Below, one piece after another: positions 25,345-32,547 of a DNA stretch of 35,071 nt. The DNA is from Akkermansia muciniphila (GTDB taxonomy: Bacteria > Verrucomicrobiota > Verrucomicrobiia > Verrucomicrobiales > Akkermansiaceae): NCBI GenBank assembly GCA_945883695.1, contig CAMCYK010000037.1:1-35071 (forward strand), read 5' to 3'. The first letter of the stretch is position 1. Every line of letters starts with the position of its first letter. The translations under genes and the position numbers were made by a program. The notes under the pieces are model-generated. The model saw nothing but the letters and a program-made list of their open reading frames with translations. It was not told where the DNA came from and did no database searches.

Positions 25345-25393
25345 GGCGGGCGGAGGGCCGGGCGCAAGCCCTCAGCCACAAGATGCAGTTTGA

Positions 25394-25411
25394 CAGAAAG
25401 CCAGCTTTCTG
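25394..25411. promoter_or_regulatory. Palindromic operator candidate upstream of vapBC
   Basis: CAGAAAGC at 25394-25401 and GCTTTCTG at 25404-25411 form an 8-bp perfect palindrome with a 2-bp centre, ending 13 bp before the vapB start. VapB ribbon-helix-helix antitoxins bind such palindromes to repress their own operon, so this is the likely operator. It also lies 50 bp from the divergent trpE start. Confidence 0.65.
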
Positions 25412-25424
25412 GGAATGTTCCGCC

Positions 25425-25688
25425 ATGAAAACCACCCTCGACCTTCCAGACGACCTGATGCGCGAGGTCAAAATCCGCGCTGCCAGGGAAGGCAGGAAGA
25501 TGAAAGACCTGCTGGCGGCGGCGATCCGGGCTGGCCTGGACGTGGAGGCCTCGGAGTTTTCGCAGGTCCCCCGCACCGCGCTTCCGGTGATGAAACTCGC
25601 CAAGGCACCGGGGAAGAGCAAACCGCTGAGCCTTGCCGAATCCTGTGAACTGGTGAAAGCGGCTGAACTCGGGACTGACGCGGAATGA
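25425..25688 (+). CDS. vapB: VapB-type antitoxin (ribbon-helix-helix)
   Basis: 87 residues starting 'MKTTLDLPDDLMREVKIRAA', the beta-strand and helix of a ribbon-helix-helix DNA-binding domain, followed by 'EGRKMKDLLAAAIRAGL'. The C-terminal tail (about 40-87) would bind and block the VapC toxin. The frame extends to 25383, but those 14 codons overlap the palindromic operator, so Met at 25425 is chosen. It overlaps vapC by 4 bp (ATGA). Autorepression with VapC is expected. Confidence 0.85.
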   Translation: MKTTLDLPDDLMREVKIRAAREGRKMKDLLAAAIRAGLDVEASEFSQVPRTALPVMKLAKAPGKSKPLSLAESCELVKAAELGTDAE

Positions 25689-26131
25689 ACGTTCTGCCGG
25701 ACACGAATTTCTGGATCGCGCTGACCTTGGGCAGCCATCCCGGACACGCGTTGGCCACAGCGTGGCACGCGGCGGCTCCGCTCGGCCGCGGCAGCTTGAT
25801 TTTTTGCCGCCACACCGAACTCAGCTTCCTGCGCCTGACCACCCAAGAGAGCACGATGCTCGCCTTCGGCAAAAAGCCGTTCAGCAACAGCGACGCCACG
25901 CGCTTCCTCGCATCGGTTCAGGCCGATCCGGTGGTCTCGGGCAAAGCTGAAGCCAACGGCACCCGCGAGCTCTGGCTGAAGCTCGCGGGCTCCGGGGTAT
26001 CTTCACCCAAAGTCTGGATGGACGCCTACTTGGCCGCTTTCGCGATCCAGCATGGTGCCGAACTCGTGACCTTCGACAAGGGCTTCCGGAAATTCGAGAA
26101 GGCAGGCCTGACATTGCGTCTGTTGGAATGA
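25685..26131 (+). CDS. vapC: VapC-type toxin, PIN-domain ribonuclease
   Basis: 148 residues with the four acidic PIN residues in place: Asp6 ('VLPDTNFWIAL'), Glu45 ('HTELSFLRL'), Asp113 ('WMDAYLAAFA') and Asp131 ('LVTFDKGF'). PIN toxins cleave RNA, often initiator tRNA or rRNA loops, using Mg2+ or Mn2+. The active site appears intact, unlike the toxin of the other addiction module in this window. It is translationally coupled to vapB. Just after its stop a five-copy tandem array of a 110-bp REPIN begins. Confidence 0.93.
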   Translation: MNVLPDTNFWIALTLGSHPGHALATAWHAAAPLGRGSLIFCRHTELSFLRLTTQESTMLAFGKKPFSNSDATRFLASVQADPVVSGKAEANGTRELWLKLAGSGVSSPKVWMDAYLAAFAIQHGAELVTFDKGFRKFEKAGLTLRLLE

Positions 26132-26142
26132 CGGCAGCGGAC

Positions 26143-26791
26143 GTCGCACAACTTTGCAAGTTGTGACGGGGTGCGGCGGACCTCACCCCGATGCTTCGAG
26201 GCCACCCCGGCGCGGCGACCCGCCCACCGCGCAATTTGCAAAATCGCGCTACTTCGGCGACCCGCGGCAGCGGACGTAGCACAACTTTGCAAGTTGTGAC
26301 GGGGTGCGGCGGACCTCACCCGGATGCTTCGCAGCCACCCCGGCGCGGCGACCCGCCCACCGCGCAATTTGCAAAATCGCGCTACTTCGGCGACGCCGCG
26401 GCAGCGGACGTAGCACAACTTTGCAAGTTGTGACGGGGTGCGGCGGACCTCACCTCGATGCTTCGAGGCCACCCCGGCGCGGCGACCCGCCCACCGCGCA
26501 ATTTGCAAAATCGCGCTACTTCCCGGCGACGCCGCGGCAGCGGGCGTAGCACAACTTTGCAAGTTGTGACGGGGTGCGGCGGACCTCACCCGGATGCTTC
26601 GCAGCCACCCCGGCGCGGCGACCCGCCCACCGCGCAATTTGCAACATCGCGCTACTTCCCGGCGACGCCGCTGCAGCGGACGTAGCACAACTTTGCGGGG
26701 TGTGACGGGGTGCGGCGGACCTCACCTCGATGCTTCGCAGCCACCCCGGCGTGGCGACCCGCCCACCGCGCAATTTGCAAAATCGCGCTAC
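26143..26791. repeat. Tandem array of five 110-bp REPIN elements
   Basis: Units at 26143-26252, 26276-26385, 26410-26519, 26546-26655 and 26682-26791, each exactly 110 bp, separated by conserved 23-26-bp GGCGACGCCGCGGCAGCGG-type linkers. Each starts with GTAGC and the hairpin CACAACTTTGCAAGTTGTG and ends with the hairpin CGCGCAATTTGCAAAATCGCG then CTAC, so two GTAG heads face outward. Units 2 and 4 share 'CCCGGATGCTTCGCAGCC' and units 1 and 3 a 'CGATGCTTCGAGGCC' centre, suggesting growth by dimer duplication. Unit 1 has GTCGC instead of GTAGC, and unit 5 has a damaged left hairpin (TTTGCGGGGTGTG). It fills the space between convergent vapC and the dehydrogenase gene. A sixth copy is at 31452-31561. 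Confidence 0.93.
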
Positions 26792-26820
26792 TTCGGCGAC
26801 GCCGCCCACCGCACGCAGCG

Positions 26821-28971
26821 CTACTTCGCGGCGATCCGCGTCTTGGCCGGGGTGAAGCCGGGGGCTTCGGCGCTGATTTCCCAGGCACCGCCGCTGCCGG
26901 CATTCGCGGGCTTCGGGGAAAGGGCGAGCTTGCCTTCCGCGGTGCCACGGGATTCGGACATGCCTTCGGAAAGAGCCAGGATCGCGCGGATGATGGTCTC
27001 GCCCTCGGCGTCGGTGACGGCGATCTGCGGCGGCATCGGAACCTCGCCCCAGACCCCGGCACCGCCGGTCTTCAGCTTGCCGCGCAGCCGCTCGAGCGCG
27101 GCGGCATCGGCGCGGTTCTTCATGGCGACGTCGAGATAGGACGGGCCGACCGAGGTCTTCTCGACCTGATGGCAGGCGAGGCATTGCTTGGAAACCACCA
27201 GCTTCTCGATCTCCGACGTGAACTGCGGGCCGCCGGCATCGTGGCCGGTCGGCGGGATGTAGCGGGCGCGGACGACCACCTTGGCGGGATCGGCGGCCCC
27301 CTTGACCGCGAAGGCCAGCTCTTCGCCGAAGCCAAGCTGCGAGGGCTTGCCGGCAAGCTCGAGTTCAAGCGCGGGCAGCGCCTGCTCCTGCACCAGCGAG
27401 ACCCGGGCCACCGCGGTCTTGCCCTGCGGGTCCTTCGCCACGGCGCGCAACTCGCTGCCGCCGGCGACGTGGGTGATCGTCGGGCCGCTGCCGACCTTCA
27501 ATTCCCCGGCGCCCTCGGTCAGCCACCACTCGATGCCCACCTCCCCGTCCTCGGGATCGGTCGCGGTCGCGGTGTGGACGTTGCCGGCGGAGGCGATCGT
27601 GACGACCGGCGGCTGTTTGCCGTCAGCCGGGCGCATGCGACGGATCCGGCCATCCTTGTTGAAGTACCAGTCGGCGCCGTATTCGAGCAGCCAGACGGTG
27701 CCGTCGGCCGCCATCTCCAGATCCATCGGATGCTTCAGCCCGCCGATCAGCGGCTCGATCTTCTCCAGCTTCTCCTCGTCGCCGAGCTTGGCCTTCCAGA
27801 TGTTGCTGCGCATCCAGTCGTAAACCAGCAGGGTGTGGTCGTCCTCCTTGCCGAGCAGGTTGTATTTCCTACCAGGCTCGTAGTAAAAGACCGGCCCGGC
27901 CATCGCGTTGCGGCCGCCCTTGCCCATCGCCGGGAACTCCGGGCTGTCGGCGTAGGGATACCAGATGAAGGCCTTCTGCGCGGGTGGCAGGTCGACCAGG
28001 CCGGTGTTGTGCTTGCCGGGGTTTTTCGGCGCGGCGGGATCGGTCATCGCGCCGGGCTTGCCGGTGGCGAAGTCGACGATCGGATACGGCTTGTTGTCGG
28101 CGATCACGAAGGGCCAGCCGAAATTGCCGGCCTTTTTCGCCTGGTTCACCTCGTCATGGCCGCGCGGGCCCTTGTCGCCGGGGTCGCCGGCATCGGGACC
28201 GACCTCGCCCCAGTAGATGACGCCGGTCTTCGGGTCGATCGACAGGCGGAAGGGATTGCGGCAGCCCATCACGTAGATCTCCGGGCGGGTCCTGGCGGTG
28301 CCGGGGGGAAACAGGTTGCCGGCCGGGATTTCGTAGCCGTCCTCGGTCGGGCGGATCCGCAGGACCTTGCCGCGGAGGTCGTTGGTGTTGCCCGCGCTGC
28401 GCATCGCGTTGACGTGGTCGCGGCCGTCGCGGTCGTCGATCGGGGCGACGCCGCCGCTCTCGAAGGGATTGGTATTGTCGCCGGTGGTGATGAAGAGCAG
28501 GCCGTCGCGGGAGAATGCCAGCGAGCCGCCGTGGTGGCAGACCCGGTCGCGGCGGTCGCTGGCGACATCGAGCACGATTTTCTCCGAAGCCAGATCGAGC
28601 ATGCCGTCTTTCAGGGTGAAGCGCGACAGCCGGTTGAGCATTTCCTTCGCGTGGCTGTAGTAGAGGTAGAGCCGCTGGTTTTTCGCGAAGTCGGGATCGA
28701 GCGCGATCCCGAGAATCCCGTCCTCGCGGGCCCACGGCGTGTTGGCTTCCGCCTGGCGCAGCGCGGTGACCGGGAGATTCCCGATTTCGAAGACCCCGCC
28801 GGTCGACGGGCGGACGCGGAGCACCCGGCCCTCGCGTTCGACCACGAAGAGATCGCCGTCCGGCGCGATGGCGATTTCCATCGGATCGCGCAGGCTTTCG
28901 GCGAAGAAGGTGCTTTCGATATCGGCGGCGCTCGCGGCGGCGAGCAAGGAGAGGCAGGCAAAGGTTCGCAT
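26821..28971 (-). CDS. Sorbosone/glucose dehydrogenase-like beta-propeller fused to cytochrome c
   Basis: 716 residues with a short signal peptide ('MRTFACLSLLAAASAADI'). Residues about 20-460 form a PQQ-type six-bladed propeller of the GSDH/sorbosone dehydrogenase family ('DPMEIAIAPDGDLFVVER', 'GILGIALDPDFAKNQRLYLY', 'CHHGGSLAFSRDGLLFITTG', 'YVMGCRNPFRLSIDPKTG', 'GGLKHPMDLEMAADGTVWLL'). About 465-540 looks like a PKD/Ig-type linker. A cytochrome c domain follows with 'CLACHQVEK' near residue 595 and a likely axial methionine in 'GEVPMPPQ'. This layout would oxidise a sugar or aldose in the periplasm and hand electrons to its own heme; the substrate is unknown. The stop TAG lies in GAAGTAGCGC, the same sequence as a REPIN head. 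Confidence 0.92.
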   Translation of the reverse strand: MRTFACLSLLAAASAADIESTFFAESLRDPMEIAIAPDGDLFVVEREGRVLRVRPSTGGVFEIGNLPVTALRQAEANTPWAREDGILGIALDPDFAKNQRLYLYYSHAKEMLNRLSRFTLKDGMLDLASEKIVLDVASDRRDRVCHHGGSLAFSRDGLLFITTGDNTNPFESGGVAPIDDRDGRDHVNAMRSAGNTNDLRGKVLRIRPTEDGYEIPAGNLFPPGTARTRPEIYVMGCRNPFRLSIDPKTGVIYWGEVGPDAGDPGDKGPRGHDEVNQAKKAGNFGWPFVIADNKPYPIVDFATGKPGAMTDPAAPKNPGKHNTGLVDLPPAQKAFIWYPYADSPEFPAMGKGGRNAMAGPVFYYEPGRKYNLLGKEDDHTLLVYDWMRSNIWKAKLGDEEKLEKIEPLIGGLKHPMDLEMAADGTVWLLEYGADWYFNKDGRIRRMRPADGKQPPVVTIASAGNVHTATATDPEDGEVGIEWWLTEGAGELKVGSGPTITHVAGGSELRAVAKDPQGKTAVARVSLVQEQALPALELELAGKPSQLGFGEELAFAVKGAADPAKVVVRARYIPPTGHDAGGPQFTSEIEKLVVSKQCLACHQVEKTSVGPSYLDVAMKNRADAAALERLRGKLKTGGAGVWGEVPMPPQIAVTDAEGETIIRAILALSEGMSESRGTAEGKLALSPKPANAGSGGAWEISAEAPGFTPAKTRIAAK

Positions 28972-29024
28972 GGGCAGGAATACCCTACACTACCCGGCAA
29001 GCCGAAATTTCAAGGTGGCAGCCC

Positions 29025-29134
29025 TGGACTGCGGCAGCCTGCTGCCGCTTTGTTGCCACGGCCTGCCGTGGAGTCGGGACCGGACCCGTCAGCAGGCTGA
29101 CGGAGGGAAAGCGGCAGCAGGCTGCACGCAGTCC
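29025..29134. repeat. REPIN of a different family, also 110 bp
   Basis: GGACTGCGGCAGCCTGCTGC then CGCTTT at the left end is inverted at the right end (AAAGCGGCAGCAGGCTGCACGCAGTCC, 29108-29134). Each end contains a GCGGCAG/CTGCCGC hairpin; the centre has CCACGGCCTGCCGTGG. Sequence is unrelated to the GTAGC family, but the total length is again 110 bp. It lies between the dehydrogenase start (28971) and the DUF457 stop (29143). Confidence 0.85.
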
Positions 29135-29142
29135 ATGGGGTC

Positions 29143-30246
29143 CTAGCGGTGCTCCGGCAGGTACTCCTGGAGCGCGAGGAAGGCCCCGATCAGCCGCGGA
29201 TTGCCATCCCAGGCCACGGTCTCGCCGCTGATCCGGCGGCCCATCCGGCGCATGGACTCCCCCGCCCCGCGCGCCTGCGGCCCGTGCTGGCGCAGGCGGT
29301 CCTTCTTGCTGTCCGGCGAATAGGTCCAGACGAACGACGGCCGCAAGGCGACCCCGCGATCGTCCCACTGGCGGGATTCGCCGAAGCGGAGGTCGGCCAG
29401 CCACAGGCCCTCGGCCGATTCCCGGGCGATCCACCAGCCCTTGGAAAACCACTGGACCGCCTTGACCTCGCTCGCCCCGGCATGCTTGGCGGCGATCTCC
29501 TCGCCTTTGGCGACCACGGTCCAGCGGACCGGCAGTTCGGCGGGATCGAAGACCGAGCGGTAGCCGATCCAGATCTCGCCCGGCCGGTCGACCAGAACCC
29601 GCCAGAAGAAAATGTTGAACGGCGTGGGGGCCTCCATCCGCCGCTGCCAGGGGATGCCGCGGCGGACCAGATCGGCCTCCACCGCCCGGTTGACGGAATG
29701 CTTGGCCCAGAAACTCAGCAACACATAAAACGAGCTGATTCCGAGGCACCACGCCGCCGCGCGCCGGCCCTTGCCGGTTTTCCAATCCTTCGGCTTCACG
29801 AACAGCCCGATGACCACCGCGACCAGCAGCGGGAGGGTGAAGACGGGATCGATGATGAACAGGTTGTCGGTCGACGTCCGCGGCCCGGGAAAGGGGGCGA
29901 ACACCCCGGTGCCGTAGACCGTGAACACGTCGATCAGCACGTGGGTGCCCCAGGCGAGGAAGACGAAGACCGCGGCGCGCTGCGGGCTGACCTTGTCCTT
30001 TTTCCACCGGTTCGCCAGCGGCTTGGCCAGCAGCCAGGTGAGCAGGGCCATCAGCAGCAGCGAATGGGAGATGCCGCGGTGCATCCGCAGGTCCCAGGCG
30101 GTGGGCAGCAGCCAGGTGAACACGACATCGAGATCGGGCAAGGTGCCGAACAGGGCGCCCCACGCGATGGCGCGCCGGCCGAGCTGGCGGCCGAGCACCA
30201 GTTCGCCGATCACCGCGCCGAGCGCCGCCTGGGTGAGCGAATCCAC
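29143..30246 (-). CDS. DUF457/YdjM-type membrane-bound metal-dependent hydrolase, GTG start
   Basis: 367 residues starting at GTG 30246: (M)DSLTQAALGAVIGELVLG is the standard N-terminus of this family. The open frame continues upstream to 30879 only antisense to the aminotransferase. Family features are the short polar 'LFGTLPDLDVVF' after the first helix, 'DLRMHRGISHSLLLMALL' with histidines likely to bind metal, and 'WGTHVLIDVFTVYGTGVFAP'. About five membrane segments occupy the first 190 residues. The second half (about 190-367) is a soluble domain ('FNIFFWRVLVDRPGEIWIGY') that is longer than in the E. coli LexA-regulated YdjM. The reaction is unknown. It is divergent from the aminotransferase gene. 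Confidence 0.88.
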   Translation of the reverse strand: MDSLTQAALGAVIGELVLGRQLGRRAIAWGALFGTLPDLDVVFTWLLPTAWDLRMHRGISHSLLLMALLTWLLAKPLANRWKKDKVSPQRAAVFVFLAWGTHVLIDVFTVYGTGVFAPFPGPRTSTDNLFIIDPVFTLPLLVAVVIGLFVKPKDWKTGKGRRAAAWCLGISSFYVLLSFWAKHSVNRAVEADLVRRGIPWQRRMEAPTPFNIFFWRVLVDRPGEIWIGYRSVFDPAELPVRWTVVAKGEEIAAKHAGASEVKAVQWFSKGWWIARESAEGLWLADLRFGESRQWDDRGVALRPSFVWTYSPDSKKDRLRQHGPQARGAGESMRRMGRRISGETVAWDGNPRLIGAFLALQEYLPEHR

Positions 30247-30339
30247 GGCGGGAGAAACCGCCGGGGCGGCCGGATTGCCAAGCGGGAAGTTTCCCAGGAG
30301 GAGATTTTCCGGGCCGGCGGCCGCGGAATCTGCTAGAAA

Positions 30340-30344
30340 AGGAG
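30340..30344 (+). promoter_or_regulatory. Shine-Dalgarno deciding the aminotransferase start
   Basis: AGGAG at 30340-30344 is one base from a GTG at 30346 but 10 bases from the ATG at 30355, so the ATG is the workable start. Clear ribosome sites of this kind are rare at the other genes in this window. Confidence 0.6.
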
Positions 30345-30354
30345 CGTGAATCTC

Positions 30355-31452
30355 ATGCACGTCCCCGAACGCATCCTGATGGGCCCCGGCCCGAGCACCG
30401 TGCCCTCCCGCATCCTGCGCGCCATGGCCGCGCCGACCCTCGGCCACCTCGATCCCCGCTACATCGAGATCATGGACTCGACCTGCGTGAAGCTGCGCAA
30501 GGTCTTCGAAACCGAGAACGCGCTGACCTTTCCGGTCTCCGCCACCGGGATGGCCGGGATGGAATGCGTGGTGACCAACCTGATGGAGCGCGGCGACGAG
30601 GCGATCGTCTGCGTCAACGGCGTTTTCGGCGGCCGGATGGTCGACGTGATGGAGCGGGCCGGCGTGACGGTGCACCGGCTCGACGTGCCCTGGGGTGAAA
30701 TTTTCCCGCTCGAAATGCTGGCCGAGGCGGTCGGGCGGCACCCGAAGGCGAAAGCGCTGGGGATCGTGCATGCGGAGACCTCGACCGGCGCGCTGCAGCC
30801 GCTGGAGGGACTCGCGGAGATCCTGCACGACGCCGGGATGCTCTTCATCGTCGATGCCGTGACCTCGCTCGCCGGGCATCCCTTGAAAGTCGACGCGTGG
30901 GGGATCGACGCGATCTACTCAGCCACCCAGAAGTGCATGTCCTGCCCGCCGGGCTTGTCGCCGGTGTCGTTCTCGCCGCGGGCGGTGGAGGTCACCGAGC
31001 AGCGCAAGAGCAAGGTGCAGAGTTGGTATTTCGATATCTCGATGCTCAAGGACTACTATCGGGGCAGCGGCCAGCGGGCCTATCATCACACCGCGCCGGT
31101 GAACATGATCTACGCGCTGCACGAGGCGCTGACGATCGTGCTGGAGGAGGGTCTGGAAGCGCGGCACGCGCGGCATGCGCGATTGCACCGGCGGCTGCGT
31201 GCGGGGCTGGAATCGATGGGGATCCGCTATGTGCCCGAGCACTCGCTGCACACCTTGAACTGCGTCCACATCCCGGCGGGTGCGGACGACGTGGCGGTGC
31301 GGGCGAAGTTGCTGGACGATTATTCGATCGAGATCGGCGCCGGCCTCGGTCCCTTCGCCGGCAAGGCCTGGCGGATCGGATTGATGGGGCACTCGGCGAA
31401 CCAGGCGAATGTGGATCTGGTGCTGGCGGCGCTGGTGGATTGTTTGGAGTAG
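30355..31452 (+). CDS. Class V aminotransferase, serine/alanine-glyoxylate type
   Basis: 365 residues of a PLP enzyme. 'LMGPGPSTVPSRIL' opens the protein, as in serine-glyoxylate and alanine-glyoxylate aminotransferases. 'LTFPVSATGMAGMECVVTNL' binds the cofactor phosphate, Asp167 in 'LFIVDAVTSLAGH' contacts the PLP ring, and Lys193 in 'IYSATQKCMSCPPGLSPVSF' is the Schiff-base lysine. 'WRIGLMGHSA' near the end holds the carboxylate-binding arginine. It would move amino groups between alanine or serine and glyoxylate; the exact donor is not decidable. The ATG at 30355 is preferred over GTG 30346 because of the ribosome site. The coding end TTGGAGTAG runs directly into a second TAG that is part of the GTAGC head of a 110-bp REPIN. 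Confidence 0.93.
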   Translation: MHVPERILMGPGPSTVPSRILRAMAAPTLGHLDPRYIEIMDSTCVKLRKVFETENALTFPVSATGMAGMECVVTNLMERGDEAIVCVNGVFGGRMVDVMERAGVTVHRLDVPWGEIFPLEMLAEAVGRHPKAKALGIVHAETSTGALQPLEGLAEILHDAGMLFIVDAVTSLAGHPLKVDAWGIDAIYSATQKCMSCPPGLSPVSFSPRAVEVTEQRKSKVQSWYFDISMLKDYYRGSGQRAYHHTAPVNMIYALHEALTIVLEEGLEARHARHARLHRRLRAGLESMGIRYVPEHSLHTLNCVHIPAGADDVAVRAKLLDDYSIEIGAGLGPFAGKAWRIGLMGHSANQANVDLVLAALVDCLE

Positions 31453-31561
31453 TAGCACAACGTTGCACGTTGTGATCGGGGGCGGGTCGCCGCGCCGGGG
31501 TGCTTCGTAGCCGCCCCCAGCGGCCCGCCGCACCCCGTCGCAACTTGCAAAGTTGCGCTAC
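31452..31561. repeat. Sixth copy of the 110-bp REPIN, inverted relative to the array
   Basis: From GTAGC (31452) to GCTAC (31557-31561) is exactly 110 bp. Its reverse complement aligns along its whole length with the units at 26143-26791: GTAGCGCAACTTTGCAAGTT head and hairpin, then ACGGGGTGCGGCGG, GAAGCACCCCGGCGCGGCG and ACCCGCC, and a CACAACGTGCAACGTTGTG hairpin at the far end. It occupies the entire space between two convergent genes. The upstream gene's stop shares its first base, and the downstream gene's TAG (31560-31558) is its terminal GTAG. Confidence 0.92.
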
Positions 31562-32547
31562 TTCTTGCCGATCTCCCGGACAACCGCTTTCCCGTCCGCC
31601 CCTGCAAACTCCACCACGATCCGCTCTGGGGTTACTTGTTTGAGAAAAAACTCCTGACCCGCGGGGTCGGGAGGCAATCTGAATTTCCGCCGCTCTTCAA
31701 CCTCGAACTCTTTGCCGATGAACTCCAACACGGCAGTCCGGTCGTAGTAGGCTTTCTTCGTCAACTCGGCATCCGGCAATCCATACTGCGACTCATACCG
31801 CTCGCCCTTCTTGTTCGACTTGAGGTCTTCGTATTCCGCAAACTTGACGTTCTGAACCAATTTCGTGCGCTCGCTGGTGACCTGACGCTCCGTGAACCCG
31901 AGGAACTTGAAGCGCCCCGACATGAAGCCGTTATCGAAGAAGGTGTCGCCGGGACTAATCATCCCGAGAGCGGAGACCTTGTTCCCAGCTATCTTTCCGC
32001 CAAACGGTCGGGCTATGAGCTTCGGCGCCCACTTTCCGTCGGACTCAAATCTGAACTGAACATACCACATCGTCGACTCATCCCGGACATAGCGCAGGGC
32101 ATTCAACGCCAGAAGCTGCTCATCCGGCGCTGTTGCACCTTCTGGATCCACCGCGGGCTTCGGATCCCCGGTCCCGGCGATCTCCGGTTCGATGACAGGC
32201 GGGATCTTCTCTTGCTGACCCGCAATCTCTTCTTCACCCGGAGCTGCGACCGGCAGCGACTCACCCACCTTCTCGGGATCAAGCCCCGGCGCTTCCACCA
32301 GCCTCCCGCTCCCCGTATCCGGCTTCTCAAACACCTTCCACAGCAACCCGCCCGCCGCGAGCAGCACGACCGCGGCCGCAGTGGCGGGCCAGAAAAAATC
32401 GAGATTCCGCCGCTCGGACTTCGCTTTCGGCGCGGCCTGCATCTTCGACGCGATGGCATGCAGCAAGACCTCGTCGGGCTTGCCCTTGGCCTGCTCTTTC
32501 AACAGCGAATCGATGAGGCGGTCGTTCGGATCTTCGGAAGGATTCAT
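31558..32547 (-). CDS. Putative anti-sigma factor with periplasmic domain
   Basis: 329 residues. A cytoplasmic N-terminal segment of about 50 residues ('DRLIDSLLKEQAKGKPDEVL') is followed by one membrane helix at 51-72 ('FFWPATAAAVVLLAAGGLLW'), a proline/glutamate-rich linker to about 140, and a periplasmic domain of strands and helices ('STMWYVQFRFESDGKW', 'ALGMISPGDTFFDNGFMSGR', 'QVTSERTKLVQNVKFAEYED'). The end 'FLKQVTPERIVVEF' resembles the small beta domains found in secretion-system pilot proteins. It begins 22 bp after the ECF sigma gene on the same strand, the classical place for the cognate membrane anti-sigma factor; no zinc-binding HxxxCxxC motif is visible, so this rests on position and topology. 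Its stop codon TAG lies inside the head of the adjoining REPIN. Confidence 0.65.
   Translation of the reverse strand: MNPSEDPNDRLIDSLLKEQAKGKPDEVLLHAIASKMQAAPKAKSERRNLDFFWPATAAAVVLLAAGGLLWKVFEKPDTGSGRLVEAPGLDPEKVGESLPVAAPGEEEIAGQQEKIPPVIEPEIAGTGDPKPAVDPEGATAPDEQLLALNALRYVRDESTMWYVQFRFESDGKWAPKLIARPFGGKIAGNKVSALGMISPGDTFFDNGFMSGRFKFLGFTERQVTSERTKLVQNVKFAEYEDLKSNKKGERYESQYGLPDAELTKKAYYDRTAVLEFIGKEFEVEERRKFRLPPDPAGQEFFLKQVTPERIVVEFAGADGKAVVREIGKK

Follow-up and report, generated by a model that had tools for sequence, protein, structure and literature searches.

Background

Among described systems, the repeats studied here are most readily compared with the REPINs of Pseudomonas fluorescens SBW25, which, in the sections of the original report drawn on here (Bertels and Rainey 2011, PMC3116915), are inverted REP doublets that form hairpins, are dispersed in the genome and are linked to a RAYT. 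The same sections describe ordered tandem REPIN clusters with a next-neighbour peak at 110 bp for GII doublets, tandem REPINs that include their flanks, and a largest cluster made of four REPINs plus one REP. They also describe an asymmetric excised REPIN intermediate, for which the authors proposed that pairing with a complementary target could restore symmetry, and they termed the dissemination of REPINs a central, unresolved issue in 2011. The GTAG REP families (Di Nocera et al. 2013, PMC3733652, cited from excerpts) are GTAG-tagged dimers whose large clusters are mostly tandem and contain flanking DNA, whose termini often provide a TAG stop codon to flanking ORFs, and which are strongly enriched in the verrucomicrobial O. 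terrae. RAYT or TnpAREP proteins are enzymes of the HUH/tyrosine type that act on single strands; cognate REPs flank their genes, and one REP is often found beside the stop codon (portions of PMC2817692 and PMC8266576).

The locus described here is of a known kind, a tandem REPIN cluster with flanks of the Bertels and Rainey type, differing from the SBW25 clusters in phylum, in head sequence and in having five whole units. What is new is that 55 of 55 coding frames reaching a REP head end on a stop triplet within it, and that the motif GAAG pre-exists at the insertion point of some empty sites. No description of an empty-site target for REPINs was found in the available portions of PMC3116915, PMC2817692, PMC8266576, PMC6006769, PMC12306157 and PMC3733652; the last, within those portions, has neither an empty-site comparison nor a GAAG insertion point, both of which are given here.

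Results and discussion

The tandem array and its neighbours

The window, that is, the whole 35,071-nucleotide stretch of DNA analysed, comes from a bacterium that we label Luteolibacter-like. At 26143-26791 it carries five REPIN units arranged head-to-tail in one orientation, and 4,660 bp further on there is a single inverted copy (Table 1). The six copies of 110 bp, five in tandem and one inverted, reported in an earlier note on this DNA were confirmed at their positions; the outward-facing GTAG(C) heads that it attributed to every unit are present in general, unit 1 being the exception. Units 1 to 5 are 96, 100, 96, 99 and 95% identical to unit 2. Tandem Repeats Finder reported the array at 26132-26805 with a period of 136 (5.0 copies, 94% matches, score 1193) and, in a second reading, with a period of 270 (2.5 copies, 95%, score 1230). 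Since the genome (G000, 6.32 Mb) is a 391-contig assembly, 92.6% complete, the copy number of the array could be off. The sequence beyond unit 5, overlooked in the earlier note, is probably a truncated sixth unit, and its GCTAC at 26820-26824 contains the stop codon of the dehydrogenase gene. Directly upstream of the array, at 25383-26131, a short ORF without Pfam match is followed by the PIN-domain gene in a toxin-antitoxin-like layout.

Table 1. Features of the array, the single inverted copy and the adjacent genes (positions in the window)
Feature	Position	Strand	Remark
PIN-domain gene	25685..26131	+	convergent to the dehydrogenase gene; ends 11 bp before unit 1
Left flank CGGCAGCGGAC	26132..26142	+	recurs with single changes as 3' half of linkers
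REPIN unit 1	26143..26252	+	head GTCGC
Linker 1	26253..26275	+	23 bp
REPIN unit 2	26276..26385	+	
Linker 2	26386..26409	+	24 bp
REPIN unit 3	26410..26519	+	
Linker 3	26520..26545	+	26 bp
REPIN unit 4	26546..26655	+	
Linker 4	26656..26681	+	26 bp
REPIN unit 5	26682..26791	+	broken left hairpin arm
Probable sixth-unit remnant	about 26806..26824	+	by-eye reading; one half-REPIN at this stop codon in a relative
Gene with Glucose/Sorbosone dehydrogenase domain	26821..28971	-	stop TAG inside REP-head remnant
Aminotransferase class V gene	30346..31452	+	ends at the single REPIN
Single inverted REPIN, 110 bp	31452..31561	-	79% identity to unit 2, opposite strand; between two convergent gene ends
Gene 31558, no Pfam match	31558..32547	-	stop TAG formed by the head of the single REPIN

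Dispersal, length and folding of the REPIN family

The dispersal that the earlier note expected of its repeat was borne out by a genome search, in which a 23-base head with up to 3 mismatches occurred 110 times in the 6.32 Mb and a reversed-pattern control 0 times. With unit 2 as query and an E limit of 10, 76 matches were obtained, which include cases of one element matched on both strands; whole-unit matches on other contigs reached at most 89% identity, and one partial copy on contig C79 reached 95% over 75 bases. Heads with up to 2 mismatches were present in 9 of the 57 genomes searched, the own genome included.

The length of 110 bp, which had been taken as fixed and under selection, is constant within the window and varies genome-wide: in the fetched stretches, complete units no longer than 260 bp numbered 37 and measured 105-223 bp, with a mode at 110 bp (10 units, 6 of these in the window) followed by 111 bp (5 units), and longer units of 148-154 (7), 168-169 (3), 180-198 (5) and 214-223 bp (2). 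Selection for a fixed length is ruled out by this range. As read by eye, the spacers of L008, L013, L014 and others appear to lengthen through repeated internal modules, each of some 40 bp.

Compensatory changes between hairpin arms, another expectation of the earlier note, were found when 109 heads, collected at up to 3 mismatches, were reduced to 40 distinct ones and aligned. Of the 320 cells of the head hairpin, 94.7% were paired and 28 carried double changes, compared with 9.3 in shuffles that ignore the relatedness of the copies (0 of 500 as high on both measures). Double changes affected five of the eight pairs (1 of 500 shuffles had as many) and the covariation score was reached by 0 of 500 shuffles; the count of further pair types, 11 against 9.0 in shuffles (14 of 500), was a weaker signal. 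With the partner shifted by 1-3 columns, no more than 47.1% of cells paired and the double changes did not exceed 14. Both head hairpins are contained in the consensus of 16 full units of 106-111 bp, and single-strand folding exceeded that of shuffles with z values of -2.0 (unit 2), -3.7 (unit 3), -4.7 (single copy) and -5.4 (a copy on C179).

The candidate RAYT

The partner candidate is P0001, a protein of 214 aa encoded on contig C107, whose gene is flanked by such heads and has as its stop codon the TAG of the downstream one. Heads that are identical or nearly so also flank RAYT genes at L104 ('Verrucomicrobia bacterium isolate PH2015_07D_62_35'; 88% identity to P0001) and at L105 (Luteolibacter marinus, or Neoluteolibacter marinus in another taxonomy; 73%). 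Ten distant RAYT loci were screened in other genomes: L121, L166, L168, L169 and L170 had other GTAG hairpins on both sides, and at the other five (L106, L108, L113, L130 and L167) no GTAG hairpin pair was found next to the gene. H131 and H133 of the HxH motif and Y191 are invariant in all 10 aligned RAYTs, Y191 being presumably the catalytic tyrosine. P0001 differs from described RAYTs in its score of 55.3 bits against NF047646 REP_Tyr_transpos, under the cut-off of 80, and in the approximately 120 residues that precede its HUH motif; a PDB sequence search with it returned 0 matches at E 0.001.

A RAYT relative at 1e-40 was present in 33 of the 57 genomes, with an identity of at least 73% only in G000, G004 and G012, all three carrying heads. 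G010 (72% complete) has 31 heads and no RAYT relative at E 1e-40, and G007 (99% complete) has 33 heads and a best relative of 42%. Heads without a close relative of P0001 in these two genomes argue against a one-to-one link between head and RAYT. Three further RAYT-like genes of the own genome were dropped as partners: L100 (C330, 44% to P0001) and L101 (C209, 40%), both near GGAG-type hairpins, and L102, where the screen found no hairpins. Further REP families, with heads of the GGAG type, may be present in the own genome.

As the earlier note held, the repeats are REPINs: they are non-autonomous elements built of inverted REPs with outward GTAG heads, dispersed in the genome, with covarying stems and a RAYT gene flanked by the same heads. 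That they are instead MITEs of an ordinary IS200/IS605 element is hardly credible. RAYTs are related to IS200 transposases and the own genome has 28 Y1_Tnp matches, but the inverted hairpins with GTAG heads do not fit such an origin, and P0001 scores better as REP_Tyr_transpos, if below the cut-off, than as transpos_IS200 (20.4 bits, cut-off 55). REPINs were seen to be present or absent at orthologous sites. They would most likely have been mobilised in trans by the C107 RAYT acting as an HUH/tyrosine single-strand transposase.

Stop codons within REP heads

In the three bases preceding GTAG, 108 of 109 heads have G, 102 have A in the next position, and the last base is A (83) or C (19). Among the 104 heads of the own genome with enough upstream sequence, 25 are reached by a coding-like frame, which in every case ends on the head's own stop (24 TAG, 1 TAA); 0 frames enter the element in another frame, and for the rest 26 frames stop before the head, 17 lie on the other strand and 36 are ambiguous. 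The fetched stretches added 14 reaching frames in G012, 14 in G010, one in G015 and one in G004, all ending on TAG in the same frame. Over the five genomes, every one of the 55 coding frames extending as far as a head is terminated by the stop triplet of that head (54 TAG, 1 TAA); the figure counts frames, not independent insertions, some of which are common to several genomes. Because the use of frames by GAAG in coding DNA is uneven, we replaced a null of one third by the counts of non-REP GAAG in reaching coding frames of the window (85 in frame 0, 1 in frame 1 and 69 in frame 2). The observed 55 of 55 is far from this background, although selection against extended proteins could account for the difference. 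Lysine is the last residue in 21 of 24 listed proteins of the own genome. These data suggest insertion of the elements at gene ends, where they contribute the stop codon.

Empty sites and a possible GAAG target

Luteolibacter-like relatives in which the end of a given gene is occupied in one genome and empty in another provide a natural record of insertion points. The comparison, in which one element boundary was read, was usable for four genes, and GAAG was found at the insertion point in some or all empty sites of three of them, the fourth being mostly without it. For the dehydrogenase gene, 14 homologous loci were fetched and 11 read (L196, which remained unaligned, was dropped, and L200-L202 were left without a reading). 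All six clear empty sites had GAAG directly before the stop codon, namely GAAG TGA in G011, G008, G009 and G003, and GAAG TAA in G006 and G015. The OTC-type gene (Pfam OTCace) is occupied in G000, G010 and G007, with TAG changed to TAA in the latter; of its 17 empty sites, those of G011 and G006 read GCGAAG followed by CGC TGA, which makes the protein one residue longer, and 15 lack GAAG at that codon. The methyltransferase-type gene is occupied in G000, with AAAG now preceding the head, and in G010, and is ambiguous in G012; among the 15 others, GAAG plus one codon plus stop was present in G008, G006, G011, G017, G014 and G002 and GAAG was missing in 9. The CoA-ligase gene is occupied in G000, G010 and G007, and its 16 readable empty sites (one truncated locus was dropped) showed GAAG only in G017 and CAAG in 9, which would argue against a strict GAAG rule at this gene unless the G arose before insertion.

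These comparisons raise the possibility, which we consider evenly poised, that a REPIN inserts immediately 3' of a GAAG and itself begins with TAGC, so that one end, including the first G of GTAG, would be derived from the target. If so, a gene whose last or nearly last codon is AAG would receive a TAG stop at little or no cost to the protein, and the proposal would fit the asymmetric excised intermediate of the SBW25 REPINs. A GAAG target with one target-derived end is also a simple prediction that can be checked in vitro.

Origin of the array

The dehydrogenase gene of the window ends in GCG AAG TAG, with the TAG inside the REP-head remnant. At the same stop codon G010 has GCGAAG and then one half-REPIN with the unusual ATTTTGCAAAT head of the array, a head variant in which unit 4 carries one further change; the DNA beyond this half-REPIN is unlike the left flank of the array. 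Apparent head remnants are found at the end of the gene in G007 and G012, and the second G008 copy is ambiguous. At the G007 locus (L189) the head remnant is followed by a different GTAG hairpin-like repeat, a pattern that suggests reuse of the site by another repeat family.

The earlier note had regarded the conserved linker as a special feature that ordinary dispersed REPINs lack. This was not upheld: the linkers resemble copied insertion-site flanks, as published in 2011 for tandem REPINs and in 2013 for tandem REP clusters (PMC3116915 and PMC3733652, in the excerpts cited), and Tandem Repeats Finder found other head-containing repeats, of 85-137 bp, elsewhere in the own genome. The starts of the linkers resemble the reverse complement of the last codons of the dehydrogenase gene, and their ends resemble the left flank. 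The matches are short (that of linker 3 to the right flank is equalled by 0.3% of random 16-mers, and those of linker 2 to either flank by about 5%), so that single linkers are weak evidence; the same pattern of flanks is nevertheless seen across four linkers, and the repeated unit includes the flanks on both sides. Linker 2, the only one folded, showed a structure no better than shuffles (z 0.03).

Since the half-REPIN of G010 lies at the same stop codon and has the head variant of the array, we believe that a single ancestral insertion most likely expanded locally into the array, the element being copied with its flanks. One REPIN would have been inserted at the dehydrogenase stop codon in an ancestor, and in the own lineage the element, accompanied by some 14 bp from the gene end and some 10 bp from the opposite flank, would then have been copied in tandem by ordinary repeat expansion, presumably through slippage or unequal exchange. 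This would have produced five complete units and probably a further one, truncated afterwards. Taken as a whole, the account of REPINs, likely RAYT-mobilised, that entered once at the dehydrogenase stop and were then copied in tandem with flanks is in our judgement very probable, and the array would illustrate a route from a single REPIN to a tandem array in one lineage.

It could be argued that every unit transposed separately beside an earlier one, at the GAAG-like end that its predecessor had created, as the unit ends do recreate GAA/GAC-GTAGC termini that could attract insertion. However, the array units are 95-100% identical to unit 2, a range that whole copies on other contigs do not reach, the partial C79 copy being the exception to that ceiling; moreover, the linkers repeat both flanks and the five units share one orientation, all of which makes separate transposition improbable. 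An artefact of mis-joined or collapsed repeats might be suspected in an assembly of so many contigs, three of which (C2, C107 and C153) end inside repeat copies, but this is very improbable given that linkers and units carry different point changes and that a REP head also terminates the dehydrogenase gene of a relative. A different question is whether selection maintains the array because it terminates transcription in both directions or stabilises mRNA 3' ends. Its position between convergent gene ends would suit such a role, as would the better-than-shuffled folding of units 2 and 3 and of the single copy. This nevertheless seems rather unlikely, since G010 has one half-REPIN at the site, six genomes have none, and the left hairpin of unit 5 is broken.

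Within local growth from one insertion, amplification by a dimer step, proposed in the earlier note from the alternation of two central variants, is possible but weak. It is favoured by the differences between units (units 1 and 3 differ at 2 positions and units 2 and 4 at 1, other pairs among the first four differing at 4 to 5) and by the score of the 270-base period, slightly above that of the 136-base one. Against it, a CC is common to linkers 3 and 4 and absent from linkers 1 and 2 and from the last flank.

The single inverted copy

The copy at 31452 is a separate, older insertion. A REPIN after the aminotransferase gene was found in G000, G010 and G007 and not in 11 others (14 loci, both strands read). 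It starts directly at the stop codon in the window and about 20 bp past it in G010 and G007, because of which the empty sites of this gene are no test of the target. As for gene 31558, its close homologues, two in G000 and one in G010, are all occupied, and the remaining ones are too diverged at the end to serve as empty sites. In alignments made with a possible origin by recombination with another REPIN in view, the single REPIN scored 92 with the REPIN at the gene-31558 orthologue of G010 (C26), and 88 and 73 with the aminotransferase REPINs of G007 and G010, respectively.

A paralogue of gene 31558 with 71% identity lies in the own genome at C2:40-1038 (L024/L280) and also ends on a REP head, contig C2 beginning inside the REPIN repeat at the end of this paralogue. 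At the left edge of the window, a partial Y1_Tnp match (L057) was observed at 3-158 on the minus strand.
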